This document shows positions 1-35,707 of a DNA stretch of 42,627 nucleotides, piece by piece. Within the stretch, counting starts at the first letter, position 1; every line of letters begins with the position of its first letter. Position numbers and translations under genes: made by a program. The notes under the pieces were generated by a model that worked only from the letters and a program-made list of their open reading frames with translations, did no database searches and was not told the DNA's origin. The stretch is from Vicinamibacteria bacterium (GTDB taxonomy: Bacteria; Acidobacteriota; Vicinamibacteria; Fen-336): contig JAMPXO010000032.1 of the NCBI GenBank assembly GCA_023701125.1, positions 1 to 42,627 on the forward strand, written 5' to 3'.

Positions 1-714
1 GAGGACCCGATCGGCCAGATCGTGCGCGTGCGCAACCTGCCGTTCCGGGTGATCGGCGTGCTGGCGCCCAAGGGCCAGGGCCAGATGGGCGACGACCAGG
101 ACGACATCGTGATCGCGCCCTACACGACGATCCAGAAGAAGCTGCTGGGCATCACTCATCTGAACCGGATCTCGATCTCGGCCGTCAGCCAGGACCGGGT
201 CGAGCGCGCCGCCGTGGAGATCACCCAGTTGATGCGGCAGCGCCACCGGATCAGCAACCCCGAGGAAGACGACTTCAGCGTGCGCACGGTCGAGGAGATG
301 GCGCAGACCCGACTCGACGTGGCGAACACGATGAACTCGCTGCTGATGAGCGTGGCCTCCGTCAGCCTGCTCGTGGGCGGGATCGGGATCATGAACATCA
401 TGCTGGTCTCGGTCACCGAGCGAACCCGCGAGATCGGACTGCGACTGGCCGTCGGTGCCCGCTCGCGCGACATCCTGAGCCAGTTCCTGGCCGAGGCGGT
501 GACGCTGTCGGTGTTCGGCGGGCTGCTCGGCATCGCACTCGGGGTCGGCGTGTCCGAGGCGATCGTGCAGAGCCTGGGCTGGCCGATGAAGGTCACCACC
601 GAGGCGATCGCGCTGGCCTTCGGCTTCGCCGGCGCGGTCGGCGTGTTCTTCGGCTGGTACCCCGCCCGGCGCGCGGCCTCGCTCGACCCGATCGACGCCC
701 TTCGCTACGAGTAG
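1..714 (+). CDS. MacB-type ABC transporter permease, C-terminal part (5' truncated by window)
   Basis: The reading frame is open from base 1, so only the last 237 residues are present. The first part (through VRTVEEM, about residue 98) is the end of the periplasmic MacB core domain. The rest is the FtsX-like membrane domain with three hydrophobic helices: one around SLLVGGIGIMNIMLVSV, one around FGGLLGIALGVG and one around IALAFGFAGAVGVFFGWYPA. The signature TERTREIGLRLAVGAR between the first two and the ending PARRAASLDPIDALRYE are typical of MacB/LolC-like permeases. The family acts with an ATPase and often a periplasmic adaptor to move lipoproteins, peptides or toxins out of the inner membrane. 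The partner genes would lie upstream of the window, so the substrate cannot be read here. It converges on the epimerase gene with an 11-base gap. Confidence 0.9.
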   Translation, partial: EDPIGQIVRVRNLPFRVIGVLAPKGQGQMGDDQDDIVIAPYTTIQKKLLGITHLNRISISAVSQDRVERAAVEITQLMRQRHRISNPEEDDFSVRTVEEMAQTRLDVANTMNSLLMSVASVSLLVGGIGIMNIMLVSVTERTREIGLRLAVGARSRDILSQFLAEAVTLSVFGGLLGIALGVGVSEAIVQSLGWPMKVTTEAIALAFGFAGAVGVFFGWYPARRAASLDPIDALRYE

Positions 715-10227: not shown

Positions 10228-11195
10228 GGCAGCGGCAGCGTCTCGCCCTGGAGCAGCGCCCCGGTGAGGCGGCGGATGTGGTCGGCCGCGCGCGACTCGG
10301 CGGCGTCCGCCATGAAGAGGCGGCGGCGGCGCACCGCCCGCCACACGGCGTCCTCGTACGGCACGTAGCCTGCGTAGGACGCCCGCACCCCGAGGTGACG
10401 GGCGCAGGCCGCGACCAGTTGATGGCCCACGCGCTGGTCGGCCTCGTCTCGCACCTGGTTGACGACGAAGCGCGGGTGGAACGCGGCCACCTCGCGTCGC
10501 AGCGCCTCCTCGGCGTCCGGGTGGCGCTCGGCCACGACCCGCAGCAGGTCGATCGGCGTGCGGATGCCGGCCTCGTTCTTGGCGTCGAGCGCAGAGTCGA
10601 TCAACTGCCGCACCGCCTCGTTGCCCGCGACCCCGCGCAGCCGGCGGTACAGCGCGCTCTTGATGAACCGGTAACTGTTCTCGATCGACGTCGGCTCGGG
10701 GATGACGGTCAGCAGCGAGACGTCCGAGATCAGGAAGAAGTCGATGATGTTGAACGAGCTGCCGGCCCCGAGGTCGAGCAGCACGACGTCGACGTCGAGC
10801 GCGCGCAGCCGGTTCAGGATGCGCACCTTCTGGACGTGCTTGATGTTGGCCGCGGCCAGGAAGTCGGAGGCGCCGCTGACCAGTCGCAGCCCCGGCACGC
10901 CGGTCTCCACGAGCACGTCCTCGATCTGCTCCACGCGGCGCTGGAGGAAGTCGCCGAGGGTGAGCGCCGGCATCTCGAGGCCGAGGCAGGTGTGGAGGTT
11001 GGAGCCCCCGAGGTCCGCGTCGACCAGCACGACGCGGCGGCCGGTGCGCGCGAGCTGGTAGCCGAGCGAGGCGGCGAGCAGCGACTTGCCGATCCCGCCC
11101 TTGCCGCCACCCAGCGACCAGATCTGGCGTCGCGAGCGCGGCACCGCGACCACGGCCGCGGCCGTGGTGTGGTCGGCCGGCGCGGCCGTCGTCAA
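10218..11195 (-). CDS. MinD/ParA-family ATPase
   Basis: A 325-residue P-loop ATPase with the deviant Walker A motif GGKGGIGKS (signature lysine, about residue 30-38), VVLVDADLGGSNLHT as the A' motif, and VVLLDLGAGSSFNIIDFF as Walker B. It is closer to FleN/MinD-like regulators of flagella, septa or cell poles than to chromosomal ParA with a ParB partner, because no ParB gene is nearby. A C-terminal MinD-type membrane helix is not obvious. The TTG start at 11195 overlaps the stop of the upstream secreted-protein gene (TTGA); the signature motif follows about 29 residues later. The downstream J-like/HTH gene overlaps by 10 bases. I infer that the two form a unit controlling positioning or transcription. 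Confidence 0.8.
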   Translation of the reverse strand: MTTAAPADHTTAAAVVAVPRSRRQIWSLGGGKGGIGKSLLAASLGYQLARTGRRVVLVDADLGGSNLHTCLGLEMPALTLGDFLQRRVEQIEDVLVETGVPGLRLVSGASDFLAAANIKHVQKVRILNRLRALDVDVVLLDLGAGSSFNIIDFFLISDVSLLTVIPEPTSIENSYRFIKSALYRRLRGVAGNEAVRQLIDSALDAKNEAGIRTPIDLLRVVAERHPDAEEALRREVAAFHPRFVVNQVRDEADQRVGHQLVAACARHLGVRASYAGYVPYEDAVWRAVRRRRLFMADAAESRAADHIRRLTGALLQGETLPLPWA

Positions 11196-11755
11196 CGCAG
11201 GCCGATGCTCGAGAGCACGGCCGCTCCCAGGTCGCGCAGGCGGGACTTGCCCTTCCACTCGCGGGCGGGGGCCATCTGCACCACGCACAGCGACGAGCCC
11301 TGGCCGGTCAGGCTCAGCGAGCGCTGGCGCCACTCGCGGGCGCCGCGCACGTTCTCGTCGTAGCGGATGCGGTAGGCGCTGTCGAGGGCGTCGCGGCCGA
11401 TCACCTTGCCGCCGACGTAGTCGTACTCGTAGTTCACCTCGGCGTCGAGCTGCAGCGCGGGCGCCTGGCGCTCGAGCATGCACTGCGCGTGGAACGCGTC
11501 CGGCGGCAGCTCCGAGGCGTGATACGAGACGCGGAACACGAGGCCGTCGCCGATCACGTCGATCGCGTCGGGCCGGCCCGCGACGGGCTCTTCGACCCAG
11601 CCTGCGGGGGTCCGCATCGACACGGCACCGCTGAACAGGCGGTGCTCCAGGGCAAGGTCCGGAGGCTCGGCGGCGAGGGCGAGCCCGGCCAGCACGAGCG
11701 CGGCACCGGCGAGCCCGGGCAGGCGGCGATGGCGGCGGCGGGCAGCGCGGTTCAA
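11192..11755 (-). CDS. conserved secreted protein of unknown function
   Basis: A 187-residue protein with a basic n-region (NRAARRRHRR) and a hydrophobic core ending in LALAAEPP, which looks like a signal peptide. The mature part begins with a strand-rich segment (FSGAVSMRTPAGW) and has one Cys pair (QCMLER and SLCVVQMA). The alternation VFRVSYHA, VNYEYDYVGG, YRIRYDEN suggests a beta-rich PsbP/DcrB-like fold, but I cannot confirm that. The start is a TTG at 11755, about 30 bases downstream of a promoter-like TTGCCG/TATCGT pair. The stop is coupled to the MinD-like ATPase start. No function is proposed. Confidence 0.6.
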   Translation of the reverse strand: MNRAARRRHRRLPGLAGAALVLAGLALAAEPPDLALEHRLFSGAVSMRTPAGWVEEPVAGRPDAIDVIGDGLVFRVSYHASELPPDAFHAQCMLERQAPALQLDAEVNYEYDYVGGKVIGRDALDSAYRIRYDENVRGAREWRQRSLSLTGQGSSLCVVQMAPAREWKGKSRLRDLGAAVLSSIGLR

Positions 11756-11790
11756 GATCGTCTCGGGCCTCTGTCTTGCGGGGCGGCCTG

Positions 11791-11819
11791 ACGATAGCGT
11801 GTGACCGCGCGGCCGGCAA
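11791..11819 (-). promoter_or_regulatory. sigma70-like promoter of the secreted protein/MinD/HTH operon
   Basis: Read on the minus strand: TTGCCG (11814-11819), 17-base spacer, TATCGT (11791-11796). Each box matches 4 of 6. The start codon lies 35 bases further on. Confidence 0.35.
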
Positions 11820-11847
11820 GGGCCCTGTGGCGCGGAGGATTGGCTAG

Positions 11848-11853
11848 TAGACT
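11848..11853 (+). promoter_or_regulatory. -10 box of the Asp-rich lipoprotein gene
   Basis: TAGACT (4 of 6), nine bases before the ATG at 11863, with no Shine-Dalgarno between and no convincing -35. It fits the leaderless pattern seen at several other genes here. Confidence 0.3.
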
Positions 11854-11862
11854 TGCGCCCCT

Positions 11863-12507
11863 ATGCGGCTCCGCTCCGCCCTCCTCCTCCTGGTCGTGTC
11901 GACCACCGCCTGCGGTGGCACCGGTTGCCTGATCGGCCTGCCCGAGTCGCCCGCCTGGCGCTTCGAGACCGAGGCCGACGGCACCCGCTATCGAGTCGTC
12001 ACCCGCGACCAGCAGGTGACGTGGTACCGGCTCGACGGCAAGATCCACAAGGTCCTGCTCGACACCAACGCCGACGGCAAGCACGATCTCTGGGCCTGGC
12101 ACGAAGGCGAGCCCAAGCCGAAGCGGATCGACATCGATCTCGACTTCGACGGCCAGCCCGACCGCTTCGAAGAACTGGACGCGGCGGGTGGCCTGCGCCG
12201 CGTCGGGGTCAGCACCGGCGGCAAGGGGCGCCGCTACCTGACCCCGGGTCCCGACGGCCTGCCCACGGTGGTGGAGCACGACGAGGACGGGGATGGTCGC
12301 TTCGAGCGGATCGAGCGGATGCAGAAGGGCGCCCCTGCCTCGATCGAGATCGACGGCGACCGCAACGGCCGGATCGACCGCTGGCAGCACTTCGAGGGCC
12401 GTCGGCTGACGGCCGAAGAACTGGACACGGATGGCGACGGGCGCCCGGACCGCCGCCTGCGCTACAGCTCGCGGGGAGATCTCGAGGGGATCGAGACCCT
12501 GAAGTGA
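11863..12507 (+). CDS. putative lipoprotein with Asp-rich calcium-binding-like repeats
   Basis: A 214-residue protein. The N-terminus (RLRSALLLLVVSTTAC) is a lipoprotein-type signal, with Cys17 as the likely lipidated residue. The mature part has five short acidic loops: DTNADGKHD, DIDLDFDGQPD, DEDGDGRFE, DGDRNGRID and DTDGDGRPD. They are spaced through the sequence and each is followed by an aromatic-rich strand such as LWAW or RWQHFEG. Such DxDxDG loops bind calcium in EF-hand-like and thrombospondin-type-3 repeats. No enzyme motif is seen. The stop overlaps the start of the O-antigen ligase-like gene (GTGA), so a surface-polysaccharide or envelope role is possible by context only. Confidence 0.65.
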   Translation: MRLRSALLLLVVSTTACGGTGCLIGLPESPAWRFETEADGTRYRVVTRDQQVTWYRLDGKIHKVLLDTNADGKHDLWAWHEGEPKPKRIDIDLDFDGQPDRFEELDAAGGLRRVGVSTGGKGRRYLTPGPDGLPTVVEHDEDGDGRFERIERMQKGAPASIEIDGDRNGRIDRWQHFEGRRLTAEELDTDGDGRPDRRLRYSSRGDLEGIETLK

Positions 12508-28758: not shown

Positions 28759-29205
28759 TCAGATGAAGAGGTGGTCGTCCTCGGCGTCGGCGCGACGAGC
28801 CCGGGCGCGACGGGAGTCGTCGCCGAGCGAGCCGAACTGCCGGTAGACCTCGACACCCTTCTTGATCCCGCGCAGGAACGCGACGAGGTCGGTGATCGGG
28901 CGCAGCGGGCGCAGCACCACGCGCTGGATCTGGGTGGTCGTGTCCTGCACCTTCTCCAGGGTGTCGGCCAGCAGGTCGTCGACCCGGCGGGCCTGGATCA
29001 CCGCCAGGTCCGCGACCTCCTCGAGGTTGCGCGAGACACGCACGAAGCTGGCCAGGGCGGGCGCCAGTTCCTTGTCGAGCCGCTGCTGGAGCTGGTCGAT
29101 GCGCTGCGCGAGGCGACGTCCCGAGAGCGCGAGCGCCACGAGGAAGCCCGCCTGGACGAGCGACGCCAGCGCGATCACGCCGAGGAATACGGTCGACCAG
29201 TCCAC
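28759..29205 (-). CDS. DUF948-like membrane-anchored coiled-coil protein
   Basis: A 148-residue protein with one N-terminal membrane helix (VFLGVIALASLVQAGFLVALAL) followed by a long helical region rich in Leu, Arg and Gln (about 30-100) and a charged C-terminus. The layout resembles DUF948 proteins, which are often found beside YtxH-like proteins, as here. The GTG at 29205 has a GGGAGG-type Shine-Dalgarno about seven bases upstream. It is probably co-transcribed with the YtxH-like gene 21 bases upstream. Such pairs are linked to general stress in Bacillus; that role is not shown here. Confidence 0.65.
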   Translation of the reverse strand: MDWSTVFLGVIALASLVQAGFLVALALSGRRLAQRIDQLQQRLDKELAPALASFVRVSRNLEEVADLAVIQARRVDDLLADTLEKVQDTTTQIQRVVLRPLRPITDLVAFLRGIKKGVEVYRQFGSLGDDSRRARARRADAEDDHLFI

Positions 29206-29226: not shown

Positions 29227-29553
29227 CTAGACCGAGCCTTCGTCCTTGGTCTCGTGATACGCCTGACGCCCGGCCTCGACGGCAGCGGCCAGGCGGTCCT
29301 TGCGCTTCTCGATCGAGTCGCGACCGCGATCGACGACATCGGAGGCGTCGTCGATGATCTCGCGGCCCTTGCGCACGGCCCGCTCGCGCAACTCGCGGCC
29401 GCGCTCGGCCCCCTCGCGCAGGCGATCCCCGAGCAACTCGCGAGTCTCGCGCCCGGAGCGGGGAGCGTACAGCGTCGCCAGCACGGCGCCGGTCAGGCCG
29501 CCGAGCAGGAACAGCAGTACCCCAGAGGCTCCCGAGTGGCGATCGTCATGCAT
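29227..29553 (-). CDS. YtxH-like small membrane protein
   Basis: A 108-residue protein with a glycine-rich membrane helix (GVLLFLLGGLTGAVLATLYAP, about 10-30) and the APRSGRETRELL motif typical of YtxH-like proteins, then a highly charged helical tail (about 45-100). The ATG at 29553 is preceded by a strong AAGGAGG Shine-Dalgarno. The family is widespread and its function is poorly known; in Bacillus YtxH is induced by general stress. Its own transcript probably also carries the DUF948-like gene. Confidence 0.75.
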   Translation of the reverse strand: MHDDRHSGASGVLLFLLGGLTGAVLATLYAPRSGRETRELLGDRLREGAERGRELRERAVRKGREIIDDASDVVDRGRDSIEKRKDRLAAAVEAGRQAYHETKDEGSV

Positions 29554-29633: not shown

Positions 29634-30620
29634 CTACGACGGCGCTCGCGCCGGCGGCGCCTGGTCTGCCGCAGGCGGCGCGAGGAACAGGTCGGAGGCC
29701 CACGCGGACGGCCCGACGATCTCGACCGCGCGCAGCAGCCAGGCCGCCACGAACGCCATGTAGTCGCGGGCCATGTCGTAGTTGTCCTCGAACACGTCGA
29801 TCAGGCCCTCGGCGTGGCCCTGCAACGCCACGATCGGGGTCAGCGTGCGGGCCGAGAACCAGCGCGGCCGCTCCGCGACCGACTCGAGCCCGCCGAGCGG
29901 GGCGCCAGGACCGGCCTCGAAGCAGTAGCCGGTGGCCACCGACTCGCAGCGCACGCGGCCGTCGACCAGCAGCAGCAGTGAACCGGCGCTGCTGCCCTCG
30001 GCCCACAGCTCGTGACCGGCCTCGACCCGCAGCTCCTGCATCGACCGCGACAGCTCGGCCAGCGCGTTCAGGCTGGCCCGCGCGAACGGTGCCGTGCGGC
30101 GCAGGATCAGGATGCGTTCGACGAAGTCCAGCTCGCGGCGCGGGGCCGTCCAGGCGTCCTTGCGGTCCGGCGGTCCGCACTGCTGCAGGTGGCGCTGGAC
30201 CTCGATCAGCCGCGAGCAGGTCGCCCGCAGCACGTTGTGCAACAGCGGGAAGCGGTCCTCGAACAGCTCGCTCGCGTCGTCGCCGTCGAGCGACAGGCAC
30301 AGCGAAGGTTCGCTGGCGACCGCCTCGAAGCCCTCGGCATCGCGCGCCAGGTAGCCGAGCCCGCCGACGATCGCGCCCGGCAACGCGTCGCCGAGCGGCG
30401 TGCCGCGGCGAAGGACGCGAACCCGGCCTTCGAGCAGGAAGTGCAGGGCACCCACGGGCTCGCCCGCGTTCAACAGCGCGTCGCCCGGCTCCAGCTCGCG
30501 CTCCTCGAGCCGGTCCACGATCATCGCCAGGTCGTCGGTCGAGAAGCCCGCCACCAGCGGCAGCCGGCGCAACGCCAGCAGGCGCTCGCCGTGGCCGATG
30601 CGGCCGCCGCGGGCGCTCAC
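29634..30620 (-). CDS. protein with two cyclic-nucleotide-binding-like domains
   Basis: A 328-residue protein. Residues about 15-130 form a first cNMP-binding domain (LPLVAGFSTDDLAMIVDRLEER, EPGDALLNAGEPVGALHFLLEG). A second, less typical domain spans about 180-290 (FARASLNALAELSRSMQELRV, HELWAEGSSAGSLLLLVDGR). The phosphate-binding cassette (usually GE..LL...RxA) is not obvious in either, so they may bind another ligand or only act as structural regulators. There is no DNA-binding HTH at the end. The GTG start overlaps the stop of the transporter-HEAT gene. It is likely a regulatory partner of that transporter. Confidence 0.75.
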   Translation of the reverse strand: MSARGGRIGHGERLLALRRLPLVAGFSTDDLAMIVDRLEERELEPGDALLNAGEPVGALHFLLEGRVRVLRRGTPLGDALPGAIVGGLGYLARDAEGFEAVASEPSLCLSLDGDDASELFEDRFPLLHNVLRATCSRLIEVQRHLQQCGPPDRKDAWTAPRRELDFVERILILRRTAPFARASLNALAELSRSMQELRVEAGHELWAEGSSAGSLLLLVDGRVRCESVATGYCFEAGPGAPLGGLESVAERPRWFSARTLTPIVALQGHAEGLIDVFEDNYDMARDYMAFVAAWLLRAVEIVGPSAWASDLFLAPPAADQAPPARAPS

Positions 30621-33355
30621 GCGGTCCCGCCCACCGGCTCGGCGGCCGGCCGCGACATCAGCGACAGCGCGCGCTCCACGACCCGATCGAGGAAGAAGCT
30701 GCGGCCCTCGGCGCGAGCCGCCAGCAGCCGCGGACGCATCGCCTCGAGGCCGAGTTCGCCCACGTGATAGGCGGCCAGGCAGCGCACGGTCTCCGAGTTC
30801 TCCGCGAGCAGCGCCGCCAGCAGCTCTTCGTAACCGGCGGGGCCCGGCGCGAGCAGCGGACCGGCCGGGCCCAGGCGCTGCTCCTCGGGGGCGTCGTCGA
30901 CCAGTGCCAGCAGCGCCTCCTTCACGGGCGAGGGGACCAGGTGCTCGAGCAGCTCGCGGCTGCCCGCGCGCACCTTCGGCAACGTGCTGCCGAGGCCGCG
31001 GTAGATGCGCCGGAAGTCCTCGCCGGCCTGCTGCAGCTGCAGCAGCCGGAACAGCCGCTCGACGGCGTGGGCCTCCTTGTCGCGCAGCAGCTCCACCAGC
31101 AGTCCGTGGCCCGGCATGGCGCGGCGCGGCTGCTCGCGGGCCCCGCGCAGCAGCGTCACTCGCCACGACAGCAGCTTGAGCGCGGCGGCGGCGGTGCGGC
31201 GGGACGCCTCGGCCAGCACCGCGCGGTCGAGCTCGAGGCCGGGATTGTCCGCGGCGAGCCGGTTGAGCCCGCGCAGGATCTTGAAGCGCACCATCCCGTC
31301 CGGCTCGTCGAGCAGGTGGCCGAGCAGGACCCGCGCGGCCGCGCTCGGCTCGAACTGGCTGATCGTGCGCGGCAGGTGACGGCGGATCTCGTGCGGCAGG
31401 GCGTGATCGGCCAACGCGGCGCCGAGAAAGTCCAGGGCGGCCTCGCCCTGGGCCAGCAGCGCCCCGCGAGCGGCAGGCCGCGCCTCGTGCTGGGTCAGCA
31501 GGTGCAGCAGCGGCGGCAGGAACGTGGACGAAGGACAGGCCGCCATCGCGCCGGCCACTTCCACGAGCAACTCGGCATCCGCGCCCTGGGCGAGGGTCAG
31601 CAGCAGCGGCTCGCACGCGGGCGATGGTCGACGCCGCATCGCGCGGGCGAGCGCCAGGCGCGCCGGCCGTCCTCCGTCCTGCATCAGGCCGTCGAGCGTG
31701 GCCTGCGCCTCGTCCGCGACCCAGCCCCCCGCGACCAGGCCGACGATGGCCGTGGCGCGCACGAGCGGGTCGGGGTCGGCCGTCGCCCGCCGCAGCGGCC
31801 CCTCTTCCTGCGACGCCGCACTGCGCGCGCGCAGCGCCGCCGCCCGCACCTCGGGGTCGGGGCTCGAGAGCAGCCGGTCGGCGACCGAGACGAAGTCGCG
31901 GCGCCCGGAGTCGGCGAGCAGGTCGAGCGCCCGCAGCACCACCGTGCGCGACGGGTGGTACAGGATCAACGCCGGGATCACCCGCAGCCGGCCGCTGGCG
32001 GCGAGCAGGTCCATGGCGCCCACGACCTCGGCGTCGTCGCTCGAGTTGAAGGCCGCCACCAGCGCCTCGAGATCCGCTGCGTCCAGCTCCGAGAGCTCTC
32101 GGCGATCGCCCAGCACGCCGCCACGCAGGGCGGTGCGGAACAGCTCCAGGTAGTGCTGGCGCAGGTCGGAGGCGAGCGCGATCCACAGCAGGCACAGCGC
32201 CGCCGTCGCCCCGGCCAGCGCGACGTCGCCGCGGCCGAGCACGACCTCGGAGAGGATCGCCAGCGAGGCCAGGGCCTGGCCGCCGCGCTGCCCGACGACG
32301 TCGACCAGCGGCTTGACGCGGCCGCGCAGCGCATCGGGCAGCGGCATCGCCAGCAGCTCGCTGGTGGTGCGATGCAGGGAGTGGCGCAGCGTCCCGTCCG
32401 CGCCCTTCAGCAGCAATGCCGCCACGACCCCGCCGCCGAGGGCCAGGCCCGTGGCGCCGAGCCCCACCAGCGCGGGCAGCACCCACAGCGCGCGGTGCAG
32501 GCCCATCACCCGCATCAGCGGCCCCAGCAGCAGCAGCTGGGTCGCGAAGGCGAGGCCATTGAGCAGCACGTAGAAGCTGGCGAAGAACTCCGGCAGTTGC
32601 GCCGCCGGGACCTCGCGCGCCACCGTGCTCTTGAACACGTAGTCGGCCAGGGTCAGCGCGATCGTGGACACCAGCGTCAGCCCGAGCAGGCCGCGCACGT
32701 AGGGCTCGCGCCGCAGCAACTGCAGCGCCTGCGCGGGATGCGTCAGCGGTGGCCCCGCCGCGCCGCGCCCCGACTCGGGCCGGCGCAGCAGCAGGGCGGG
32801 CCCGAGCGCCGTGACCAGCAGCACGAGCGCGGCCGCCAGCACCAGCTGCGGCGCCTCGGCCCGGCCGGCCACCACCCGCGCCAGCGTCGCGCCGCAGACC
32901 GCGCCGAGCAGGCTGCCCATGCCGATCAGGCGATACAGCCGCTTGGCCTGGGTGACGGTGTACAACTCGCCGAGGATCAGCCAGAACTCCAGCGCCGCCA
33001 GCGTGCCGACGATCCCGGTCCAGACGTAGAGCGCGCGCAGCACCCACGTCTGCTGCCAGCCGCCCAGCAGCCAGAAGCCGAAGGTGACGGCGGCGCAGCC
33101 GACGAGCAGCGCCGAGAGCGTGCGTCCCGCGCGCAGGCCGGGCAGCCGCCCCTGGACCTGCGAGAGCCCGACGGCGACCCCCGCCATCGCCAGGTAGACC
33201 CATGGCAACTGCGAGGCCGGCAACCGGGCGAGGAACAACGCGTCGCGCGCCGTCTCGAGCAGCGTGTGCGCAGCGAGGATGCCGAACAGGGCGCAGAAGG
33301 CCGCCGCGGCGCCCCGGCGTTCTTCGGGGCGCACGTCGGAAGGCGACAGGCTCAC
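30617..33355 (-). CDS. nucleotide-transporter-like (ATP/ADP carrier/MFS) protein fused to HEAT repeats
   Basis: A 912-residue protein. Residues about 15-430 hold ten to twelve membrane helices with features of the NTT/AAA-type carriers and MFS-like relatives (ILAAHTLLETARDALFLARLP near the start, LADYVFKSTVAREV in the middle, HRTTSELLAMPLPDALRGRVKPLVDVVGQRGG later). The second half (about 440-900) is a series of helical HEAT-type repeats, for example SSPDPEVRAAALRARSAA and ADPDPLVRATAIVGLVAG, in the cytoplasm. The GTG at 33355 overlaps the stop of the ferritin-like gene. Nucleotide transport is a guess: free-living bacteria have related proteins whose substrates are not known. The next gene encodes cNMP-like domains. 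Confidence 0.75.
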   Translation of the reverse strand: MSLSPSDVRPEERRGAAAAFCALFGILAAHTLLETARDALFLARLPASQLPWVYLAMAGVAVGLSQVQGRLPGLRAGRTLSALLVGCAAVTFGFWLLGGWQQTWVLRALYVWTGIVGTLAALEFWLILGELYTVTQAKRLYRLIGMGSLLGAVCGATLARVVAGRAEAPQLVLAAALVLLVTALGPALLLRRPESGRGAAGPPLTHPAQALQLLRREPYVRGLLGLTLVSTIALTLADYVFKSTVAREVPAAQLPEFFASFYVLLNGLAFATQLLLLGPLMRVMGLHRALWVLPALVGLGATGLALGGGVVAALLLKGADGTLRHSLHRTTSELLAMPLPDALRGRVKPLVDVVGQRGGQALASLAILSEVVLGRGDVALAGATAALCLLWIALASDLRQHYLELFRTALRGGVLGDRRELSELDAADLEALVAAFNSSDDAEVVGAMDLLAASGRLRVIPALILYHPSRTVVLRALDLLADSGRRDFVSVADRLLSSPDPEVRAAALRARSAASQEEGPLRRATADPDPLVRATAIVGLVAGGWVADEAQATLDGLMQDGGRPARLALARAMRRRPSPACEPLLLTLAQGADAELLVEVAGAMAACPSSTFLPPLLHLLTQHEARPAARGALLAQGEAALDFLGAALADHALPHEIRRHLPRTISQFEPSAAARVLLGHLLDEPDGMVRFKILRGLNRLAADNPGLELDRAVLAEASRRTAAAALKLLSWRVTLLRGAREQPRRAMPGHGLLVELLRDKEAHAVERLFRLLQLQQAGEDFRRIYRGLGSTLPKVRAGSRELLEHLVPSPVKEALLALVDDAPEEQRLGPAGPLLAPGPAGYEELLAALLAENSETVRCLAAYHVGELGLEAMRPRLLAARAEGRSFFLDRVVERALSLMSRPAAEPVGGTA

Positions 33356-33774
33356 GCTCGGTCCGGGCCCCCGTCGGCGAGAGCCCGCTCCAGGCGTGCG
33401 CACAGCGCGGTTTCAGCCCGCGCCAGGCGCTCGAAGAGCGCGGCTGCAGGCGCGTCGCCGGCGTCGCGCGCGGCCCGGGCCAGGTCTGGATAGAGGCGGT
33501 CTGCCTCCTCGCGTTGCACCGCCAGCGCCTGGCGCAATTCGTCCACGGGTGACCCCGCACCGGCCGTGGTGCGCAGGAGATCCAGCAGTTCGACGGCGTG
33601 CGCCGCCTGGGCCAGCGCCGTCTCGCGGCTCAACGCTCCCAGCTCGGCGTGGCCGGCCGCCTCGAGGCCCGCGGCGACGTGAAGCAAACGCCGGTGGGCC
33701 TCGCACTCGCGGCGCAGGGCGTCCTCGAGCGAGGCGCGCAGCGGGCCCGCGACCGTCGGCTCGGAGGCGCTCAT
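33352..33774 (-). CDS. rubrerythrin/ferritin-like helical protein, metal ligands partly lost
   Basis: A 140-residue all-helical protein. Two similar halves (LEDALRRECEAHRRLLHVAA; LYPDLARAARDAGDAPAAALFERLARAE) fit the duplicated helix pairs of rubrerythrin-like four-helix bundles, including the DLARAARDAGD...AALFERLARAE pattern. The ExxH iron-ligand motifs are incomplete: AETALC has no His in the second half and LAQAAHA no Glu in the first. It therefore may not bind a di-iron centre. No rubredoxin tail is present. It is the first gene of the operon with the transporter-HEAT and cNMP-type genes, linked by GTGA overlaps. The ferritin-like assignment is tentative. Confidence 0.5.
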   Translation of the reverse strand: MSASEPTVAGPLRASLEDALRRECEAHRRLLHVAAGLEAAGHAELGALSRETALAQAAHAVELLDLLRTTAGAGSPVDELRQALAVQREEADRLYPDLARAARDAGDAPAAALFERLARAETALCARLERALADGGPDRA

Positions 33775-33842: not shown

Positions 33843-34214
33843 ATGAACGTGGTGCTTCTCGTCCAGGACCTGATGTTCAAGAGCCGGATCGGCGAGGCCG
33901 CCCGCGCGGCGGGAATCGCCGTCCACGCCGCGCCCCGCGGACGCCTCGTCGACACCTGCCGCGAGAGCGGAGCCCGACTGGTGATCGCCGACCTCGACGA
34001 CCGCGGGCGCGACGCGCTGCCCGAGCTGGCCGCGCTGCGGGCAGAGCCTGCGCTCGCCTCCGTGCGCGTGGTCGGATTCCTCAGCCACGTCGACGCGGCG
34101 CGCGCGGTGGCCGCTCGCGAGGCGGGCCTCGAGCGGGTGATGGCGCGCAGTGCGTTCGTGAAGGAACTGCCCGCGCTGCTGGCCGCGGTCGCCGACGGCG
34201 AGGTGCGCTCGTGA
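33843..34214 (+). CDS. small stand-alone receiver-like protein (degenerate)
   Basis: A 123-residue protein with the alternating strand/helix pattern of a response-regulator receiver: VVLLVQDLMFKSRI, LVIADLDD (position of the phospho-Asp, about residue 49-52), VRVVGFLSHVD and a last helix. The N-terminal acidic pair is reduced to one Asp (VQD) and the conserved Lys is Arg (MARSAFV), so phosphotransfer is doubtful. The stop overlaps the 5'-nucleotidase start (GTGA). Nothing else in the operon suggests a cognate kinase. It may be a structural or allosteric partner. Confidence 0.6.
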   Translation: MNVVLLVQDLMFKSRIGEAARAAGIAVHAAPRGRLVDTCRESGARLVIADLDDRGRDALPELAALRAEPALASVRVVGFLSHVDAARAVAAREAGLERVMARSAFVKELPALLAAVADGEVRS

Positions 34215-35707
34215 CCGCCGGCGTGCTGGCCCTGCTGCTCGCGAGCGCCGCGGCGACGCCCACCGAGATCACGCTGCTGGCGTTCTCCGACTACCACTCG
34301 CACGCGGTGCCGTTCTACTCCGAGGGCCAGCCCGGCCAGGGCGGGCTCGCCCGCGCGGTCGCCTACCTCAAGCAGGCCCGCACCGCACCGAACACGGTCG
34401 TGGTCTCGGGCGGCGACATGATGAACCTCGGCACGCCCACCTGGAGCGACGAGTACCGCTGCCGCGACTGGGCCTTCTTCGACGGCCTGGTCGACGCGAT
34501 GTCGCTCGGCAATCACGAGTACGACTACGGGGCCGACGCGTTCGACGCCTGCCGCGCTTCCGTCTCGTTCCCCGTGCTGGCGGCCAACCTGGTCGGCGCC
34601 GACGGGCGCCCGTTGCTGACCCATGCCGGCAAGCCCTACCTCGTGAAAGCAGTGGCGGGGCGCAAGCTGGGCCTGATCGCCGTCGCCGGCCCGGACTTCG
34701 CCCGGCTCGTGAAGAAGGAGTGGCTGCCAGCCGGGGCGCGCTTCACGGACCCGGTGGCGACGGTGCGCGAGCTGGTCGGCCGCCTGCGCCGCGACGAGAA
34801 GGTCGACGCCGTGATCGTGATCGGCCATCAACACCGCGAGGACGACTTCGCGCTGGCCCGCGCCGTCAGCGGCATCGACCTCGTGCTCGGCACCCACTCC
34901 CATTACAAGGGCGAGTTGCAGGTGATCCCCGGCACCCCCACGTGGTACGTCTCGCCGTACCAGTACCTCACCTATCTCTCGCGGGTCGTGCTCCGCTTCG
35001 ATGGCGCGCGGCTCGCGCAGGTCACGGGTGGCCTGGTCCGCCTCGACGCTTCGCTGCCCGAGGATGGGAAGGTGGCGGCAGAGGTCGCGCGCTGGCAGGC
35101 CGAGCTCGAGCACAAGCGGCCCGAGCGCTTCACCGTCGTCGGCCGCGCCGCCGTCGCGTTGACGGACGACGGCGCGCAGTCGGGCGAATCGGTGATCGGC
35201 AACTGGGCGACCGAGGTGCTGCGGCGAGCCGCGGGCGCGCACGTGTTCTTCAACACCGCGTCGAGCTTCCGCGGCACGATCCCGCCGGGCGACGTCACGG
35301 TCGAGGCCTTCTTCCGCGCGATCCCGTACAAGAACCGAATCGCGACCGCCGAGCTGACGGGAACACAACTGCTGGCGCTGCTGCAGGCGTCGATCGCCCG
35401 CCGCGGCTCGGACGGCTTCAGCCAGCAGACCGGCCTGCGCTACCGGCTGCACGAGGGCCGCCCCGTCCAGGTCGAGGTGCTGGCCGACCCCGCGCGGCGG
35501 GAGGCCGGGTTCCTGCCGCTCGACCCGGCCGCCCGCTACCAGGTCGGCACCAGCGACTTCCAGGCCCGGTTGGCGAGTGGCTACCGCGAGCTCTTCGCCA
35601 CCAACCCCTCGCTCGTCGTCACCGAGACGGACGTGCATGCCGTGCTGCTCGACGACCTGCGCACCGGCGCGGCATCGGCACTCGACGGCCGCGACGGCGG
35701 TCGCTAG
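34211..35707 (+). CDS. secreted 5'-nucleotidase / UshA-like metallophosphoesterase
   Basis: A 498-residue protein with a short signal peptide (AGVLALLLASAAATP). The two-metal site is complete: DYHSH (D and H), SGGDMMNLG, SLGNHEYDYG (N and H), VIGHQHRED and LGTHSHYKGE. Residues about 320-480 form the 5'-nucleotidase C-terminal domain (FFNTASSFRGTIPPGDVTVEAFF, then FSQQTGLRYR). Such enzymes release phosphate from extracellular nucleotides or cyclic nucleotides. The GTG start overlaps the receiver-like gene. It is convergent with the sulfurtransferase gene, 13 bases apart. The precise substrate is not readable. Confidence 0.88.
   Translation: MTAGVLALLLASAAATPTEITLLAFSDYHSHAVPFYSEGQPGQGGLARAVAYLKQARTAPNTVVVSGGDMMNLGTPTWSDEYRCRDWAFFDGLVDAMSLGNHEYDYGADAFDACRASVSFPVLAANLVGADGRPLLTHAGKPYLVKAVAGRKLGLIAVAGPDFARLVKKEWLPAGARFTDPVATVRELVGRLRRDEKVDAVIVIGHQHREDDFALARAVSGIDLVLGTHSHYKGELQVIPGTPTWYVSPYQYLTYLSRVVLRFDGARLAQVTGGLVRLDASLPEDGKVAAEVARWQAELEHKRPERFTVVGRAAVALTDDGAQSGESVIGNWATEVLRRAAGAHVFFNTASSFRGTIPPGDVTVEAFFRAIPYKNRIATAELTGTQLLALLQASIARRGSDGFSQQTGLRYRLHEGRPVQVEVLADPARREAGFLPLDPAARYQVGTSDFQARLASGYRELFATNPSLVVTETDVHAVLLDDLRTGAASALDGRDGGR

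Follow-up and report, generated by a model that had tools for sequence, protein, structure and literature searches.

An NTT-type carrier with a HEAT solenoid, paired with a dual-CNB protein in an acidobacterial genome: a two-gene unit with a probable non-canonical substrate and ligand, and a probable ferritin-like passenger

NTT carriers are generally regarded as a hallmark of parasites and plastids. Four residues of the carrier AtNTT1, K155, E245, E385 and K527, matter for its transport function, K155 being linked to the binding of ADP and K527 to that of ATP (PMC3306366, PMC4256464). NTT carriers are also found in free-living bacteria. In the passages that deal with them, Major, Embley and Williams (2017; PMC5381601) describe NTT-HEAT proteins whose genes precede a cNBD gene or that carry a fused cNBD, mention a duplicated cNBD in Bacilli and oomycetes, and propose cAMP control of ATP uptake. 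The NTT-HEAT/cNBD pairing is thus already known in outline from that source.

We analyzed a 42,627-nucleotide stretch of DNA (the window) from a Vicinamibacteria bacterium (contig JAMPXO010000032.1). The host belongs to the Acidobacteriota and lies near the Vicinamibacteria MAGs ACD1 and ACD2 (carrier identity 87 percent); its 5.4-Mb genome shows no sign of intracellular life. Our main reading, to which we assign a probability of about 0.6, is a two-gene regulated carrier: an NTT of its own type with a dual-CNB gate docked on its HEAT arm, a non-canonical substrate or mode of binding, a non-canonical ligand, and a ferritin-like gene as passenger. The features of the locus are as follows.

33352..33774, minus strand: ferritin-like (rubrerythrin-derived) gene, 140 aa, ATG start, eroded ligands; probable passenger
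33352..33355, minus strand: GTGA stop/start overlap between the ferritin-like and carrier genes, read from the sequence
30617..33355, minus strand: NTT-type carrier fused to a HEAT solenoid, 912 aa, GTG start
32120..33343, minus strand: 12-helix membrane half of NTT/MFS fold, residues about 5-412; the VIA-align match to AtNTT1 (9j3l) spans 5..410, with phmmer/hmmsearch matches to 9j3j and 9j3n
30653..32086, minus strand: HEAT solenoid, residues about 424-901; HEAT_2 in five stretches, helical repeats in the model
30617..30620, minus strand: GTGA stop/start overlap between the carrier and CNB genes, read from the sequence; in related loci the frames abut or overlap
29634..30620, minus strand: dual CNB (cNMP-type) protein, 328 aa, GTG start
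30249..30506, minus strand: CNB domain 1, without the cassette Glu
29781..30038, minus strand: CNB domain 2, without the cassette Glu, with an acid two residues later and Arg253
29227..29553, minus strand: YtxH-like protein, part of an older RR / rubrerythrin / YtxH / DUF948 neighborhood
28759..29205, minus strand: DUF948-like protein of the same neighborhood; its Pfam match is under the family's own cut-off
33843..34214, plus strand: small receiver-like protein, divergent neighbor; RR is a label of convenience, with no Pfam match
34211..35707, plus strand: apparently exported 5'-nucleotidase (UshA-type; Metallophos and 5_nucleotid_C), divergent neighbor

The sequence-only reading had described three minus-strand genes chained by GTGA overlaps, a rubrerythrin-like bundle with eroded metal ligands, a nucleotide-carrier-like membrane half joined to a HEAT half of equal size, and a protein with two cNMP-like domains. 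All of these descriptions hold, on the evidence given below for each protein. The UshA-type 5'-nucleotidase, divergent from the carrier genes, is kept in two congeners.

The NTT kinship of the carrier is firm. The TLC family (PF03219) scores 30.3 bits in it, over a Pfam cut-off of 21, and HEAT_2 scores 49.7 bits. A carrier model built from a 57-sequence alignment is confident (pLDDT 91.8), and AtNTT1 and C. pneumoniae NTT1 rank first for it by Foldseek and VIA-align. The match to AtNTT1 has a Z of 37.6 over 405 residues at 2.4 A, compared with 29.6 for the best non-NTT carrier.

The residues important for transport in AtNTT1 are mostly replaced. With AtNTT1 numbering set by an offset of 84, which gives K, E, E and K at all four chain positions, K155, E245, E385 and K527 correspond to Y54, G114, D238 and Q360 of the window protein, and only E385 is conserved, as D. 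The same holds among the 57 relatives: position 54 is Y in 55 of them, position 114 is G in 46, A in 6 and S in 4, position 238 is D in 56, and position 360 is Q in 51 and K in 4. Two other equivalences were discarded. The TM1 lysine (window R37) was considered for K155 and ruled out by a fuller alignment, which places K155 in the FLK motif of TM2 at Y54; Q356 was dropped for K527 when a gapless alignment gave Q360. Three fused NTT-HEAT-cNBD relatives retain Lys at the K527 position. The 57 relatives share a charged set of their own, in which E34, R37, D38 and E333 are invariant and K138, R139, D238, K242, D320, K348 and R357 are near-invariant.

The tree places the window's subfamily in one group of 20 rows (support 100/99), apart from the fused forms. 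Its members come, by record titles, from Acidobacteriota, Myxococcota, Gemmatimonadota, Krumholzibacteriota, Latescibacterota, Eiseniibacteriota and Pseudomonadota. As to a single origin of the NTT-HEAT fusion, HEAT-bearing rows occur on both sides of the same tree, which has 4 to 6 label changes and open deep forks. Alignment and tree together set the carrier apart as an NTT subfamily marked by a near-invariant charged set of its own.

These replacements make canonical ATP/ADP exchange appear unlikely. They are not proof of a new substrate, because microsporidian NTTs with three of these four positions altered are still classed as nucleotide carriers (PMC4256464). The question of the substrate, which had been left open, is sharpened by the loss of most of the AtNTT1 exchange residues. 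The cargo of the carrier is probably either some other solute that is phosphorylated or anionic, or a nucleotide bound in a different mode. It could also be that the subfamily does not transport and that the membrane half is a sensor, signaling to the HEAT arm and the CNB protein whether substrate is bound. The loss of transport-critical residues together with the strong conservation of a different charged set would suit a sensor, as would the large cytosolic scaffold. However, the complete 12-helix carrier architecture and the intramembrane charges are kept, and a sensor would not need all of these, so we regard this reading as improbable.

The CNB protein shows changes at its own binding positions. 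The cNMP_binding family (PF00027) scores 64.8 bits in two stretches, above the curated cut-off. The model (pLDDT 91.7, pTM 0.88) has the CNB fold, and its nearest folds are the PKA and PKG regulatory subunits. Among 54 aligned relatives, the cassette Glu is present in none in domain 1 and in one in domain 2. The cassette Arg is not conserved in domain 1, and Arg253 of domain 2 is retained in 41 of the 54. By comparison, the cassette Glu is present in all 27 other readable CNB domains of the host genome, including three fused paralogues, which retain the cassette Arg as well. Position 246 of domain 2 is E or D in 48 of 54. By its spacing, this residue would correspond to A202 of PKA-RI alpha, an analogy of position. 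In trypanosome PKAR, a Glu at the A202 position binds the ribose hydroxyls and clashes with the cAMP phosphate (PMC10959531). To judge from these residues, the dual-CNB protein probably does not bind cAMP or cGMP in the usual pose. Cyclic-nucleotide binding is made less likely by the loss of the Glu, though the cassette Arg of domain 2, still in place in most relatives, leaves some chance of it.

These results bear on the suggestion of Major et al. (2017), as given in the passages of PMC5381601 on these proteins, which would make the carrier an ordinary ATP/ADP exchanger that imports nucleotides from the surroundings under cAMP gating. The NTT fold and kinship agree with it, and the host genome has seven class III cyclase genes as well as the fused paralogues with an intact cassette Glu and Arg. 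For the window's subfamily it is nevertheless quite unlikely, given that K155, E245 and K527 are replaced in nearly all 57 relatives and that neither CNB domain has the cassette Glu in 53-54 of 54.

The carrier and the dual-CNB protein occur together across genomes. A scan of one genome per species yielded 80 loci, 70 of them with room downstream. The dual-CNB gene directly follows the carrier gene, abutting its HEAT-coding end, in 69 of these 70 (68 adjoining and one fused), and the remaining locus has no dual-CNB gene. One of the 68 adjoining genes sits 987 bases on, behind a probably broken carrier frame. Paired loci span about seven phyla, and the pairing is present in every member examined of the window's own family. 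The nearest possible dual-CNB starts mostly give an overlap of 4 to 17 bases with the carrier stop, although exact lengths are approximate since the start was picked by nearness to that stop. Sister clades carry fused NTT-HEAT-cNBD proteins. The stable unit is therefore two genes, an NTT-HEAT carrier and then a dual-CNB protein.

Some loci of the survey depart from the usual arrangement. One (L046:9440-10792 and 10684-12138, genome G005) has the carrier and the HEAT part as two overlapping frames, through either a natural split or a frameshift. Adjacent NTT-HEAT gene pairs in opposite orientation occur at L053 and L054 (also in G031, G047 and G058), with at least one of the pair cNBD-fused where read.

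Because the CNB gene adjoins the carrier gene and sister clades have the two fused, we propose that the two proteins dock and that one regulates the other. The role in regulation or assembly that the sequence-only reading gave to the HEAT half is reasonable on the same grounds. The 12-helix NTT-type carrier would lie in the inner membrane, and its even number of helices would leave the HEAT solenoid in the cytosol. There, the separately made dual-CNB protein would dock on the HEAT arm, as suggested by fusion and adjacency. A small ligand on the second CNB domain would then let the dual-CNB protein gate the carrier.

The ferritin-like gene has a different history. The protein matches the rubrerythrin family (PF02915; 29.4 bits, Pfam cut-off 22.8). 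Three of seven ligands are changed, with Q56, Q87 and L124 in place of Glu, Glu and His (E53, E94 and H130 in Desulfovibrio rubrerythrin numbering), and E23, H59, E90 and E121 are retained. The full ligand set is present in all other rubrerythrin homologues compared. The gene is not the host's canonical rubrerythrin, which lies on contig C230 with FeS and DUF3501 genes. In the rubrerythrin tree the branch of the window protein is too long for its placement to be informative, and a plasmid search with the protein gave no match.

A rubrerythrin-like gene accompanies the carrier in none of the 80 related loci, two of them from congeners. In these congeners (carrier 87 percent identical), the carrier gene directly follows the divergent RR gene. 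Kinship with NTT carriers and co-occurrence of the three genes elsewhere had both been named as things on which the sequence-only reading depended. The first was found; the second failed for the ferritin-like gene, so that the three genes are not one conserved unit. The term operon suits the carrier and dual-CNB genes and does not extend to the ferritin-like gene, which is joined to them in no other locus searched.

The absence of the gene from all 80 loci and from the same place in the congeners rules it out as a conserved third part. It could in principle still work in the window as a third component, for example as an oxidative-stress sensor for the carrier. Its short stop/start overlap with the carrier gene and its recognizable family match would be expected of such a component, but these absences and the replaced ligands make it very improbable. 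The gene is most likely a passenger from the older RR / rubrerythrin / YtxH / DUF948 neighborhood, because three genomes carry canonical rubrerythrins there. G007 has a canonical rubrerythrin with FeS and DUF3501 genes between the RR and carrier genes. The rubrerythrin lies between RR and YtxH / DUF948 in G008 (L155:227-1929) and ahead of YtxH / DUF948 in G013 (L156:5111-6406), in both cases with no carrier at that place.

No gene other than that for the CNB protein is a universal partner across the 80 loci. Envelope-related genes recur in 30 of them, which have at least one of a second NTT (17 loci), an Omp85 barrel (15), an exported lipoprotein family (12) and an exported-looking ATP-grasp (PPDK_N) protein (8). 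The lipoprotein family has HipA/FAM20 kinase-like D-x4-N and D-x-G motifs. Members near NTT carriers and Omp85 genes (e.g. L129:3394-5037, L145:1383-3149 and L053:13881-15569) have invariant D278-x4-N283 and D306 in L129 numbering. A proven kinase it is not: the assignment is by motif, and searches gave no Pfam family (best E 0.08), no NCBIfam support and no PDB match. Among 60 relatives, 13 of 34 lipoprotein-family genes have an NTT-family gene within 6 kb, with 0.3 expected, a contrast that overstates independence in that the query came from an NTT neighbor and the genomes are related. As a rough control, one of 24 rubrerythrin-like matches outside the host genome (that of G007) is within 6 kb of an NTT gene.

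The PPDK_N protein lies within 5 kb of the carrier gene in its eight loci, and in seven it is divergent, 99-329 bp from it. It is about 950 aa long with an apparent signal peptide (L091, L095, L096, L101, L113, L136, L144, L150), and in those seven loci its gene lies a short way upstream of the NTT-HEAT gene. It is present at each of the six Gemmatimonadota loci; among the 60 window relatives it occurs only in G042. G005 and G012, from the window's own family, show a consecutive run of carrier, CNB gene, another NTT and an Omp85 protein that bears a GDWDRH motif. At two loci (L192:7931-10342 and L141:3-3263), one in an Acidobacteriota and one in a Myxococcota genome, a single open frame covers both an NTT carrier and an Omp85-type barrel, with a segment resembling a signal peptide where they join. 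A similar Omp85 and lipoprotein pair occurs in the host genome away from NTT genes (L188:7004-9854, contig C191).

The clustering of NTT, Omp85, ATP-grasp and possibly kinase-like genes near the carriers suggests, as a lead, a supply of nucleotide to the periplasm. NTT carriers of free-living bacteria may export ATP or another nucleotide to exported phosphotransfer enzymes, with the HEAT/CNB head limiting leak. The divergent PPDK_N genes, the lipoprotein family with its excess near NTT genes, the four-gene run in two family members and the adjoining 5'-nucleotidase of the window all point this way. However, the kinase assignment by motif, the dependence among related loci, the absence of all four partners from the window and the loss in the subfamily of K155 and K527, which are linked to ADP and ATP binding in AtNTT1, leave it unlikely as an account of this locus. 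A broader form would have NTTs serve, in free-living Acidobacteriota, Myxococcota and Gemmatimonadota, as the inner-membrane component of an envelope machinery feeding ATP or another nucleotide to periplasmic ATP-grasp or kinase-like lipoproteins and Omp85-linked proteins, with the HEAT arm and a dual-CNB protein that senses a nucleoside or nucleotide in place of cAMP metering the flow; it is likewise speculative and, in our estimate, unlikely. If it were true, parasite ATP theft and plastid ATP trade would be special uses of an older carrier, and if the neighborhood lead holds, it could explain how exported kinase-like bacterial enzymes obtain ATP.

The regulated two-gene carrier with a non-canonical substrate or binding mode remains our preferred reading. 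A subfamily that is kept in about seven phyla, is paired with a modified dual-CNB protein and is present in a host without signs of intracellular life must do something other than the NTTs of parasites and plastids. Its signature of residues sets it apart from known exchangers and opens both substrate and ligand to direct testing. The literature found contained no characterized member.

The locus can be compared with four known systems. The ferritin-like protein matches rubrerythrin (PF02915) above the cut-off but differs from it in the three replaced ligands, and no FeS or DUF3501 genes lie beside its gene. The dual-CNB protein has the same tandem CNB pair as the PKA/PKG regulatory subunits, including trypanosome PKAR (6flo, 6hyi, 6hyq), at 10-15 percent identity and with the domains placed differently (TM about 0.3-0.5). 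Like nucleoside-binding trypanosome PKAR (PMC10959531), it has an acid in domain 2 at what would be the A202 position of PKA-RI alpha. Unlike these proteins, it has no kinase partner and no canonical Glu, and domain 2 mostly keeps the cassette Arg. The membrane half resembles AtNTT1 (9j3j/9j3l/9j3m) and C. pneumoniae NTT1 (9j3n/9j3o) in fold and sequence, whereas the window protein adds a HEAT arm and a CNB partner to the plastid and chlamydial ATP/ADP translocators, and has the four-residue set mostly changed. The closest system is the NTT-HEAT(-cNBD) of PMC5381601, which in the passages describing it has the same C-terminal HEAT and a cNBD that is fused or encoded immediately downstream. The window's clade appears to differ in its separate dual-CNB gene, in its own near-invariant carrier residues and in the absence of the cassette Glu from both CNB domains; those passages do not treat these residues. 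What is new here, for this subfamily, is residue evidence that argues against both the ATP-uptake and the cAMP-control halves of the proposal as those passages give it. Also new are the almost unbroken pairing across many phyla, the standing of the ferritin-like gene as a probable passenger, and the envelope-related genes seen around related carriers.
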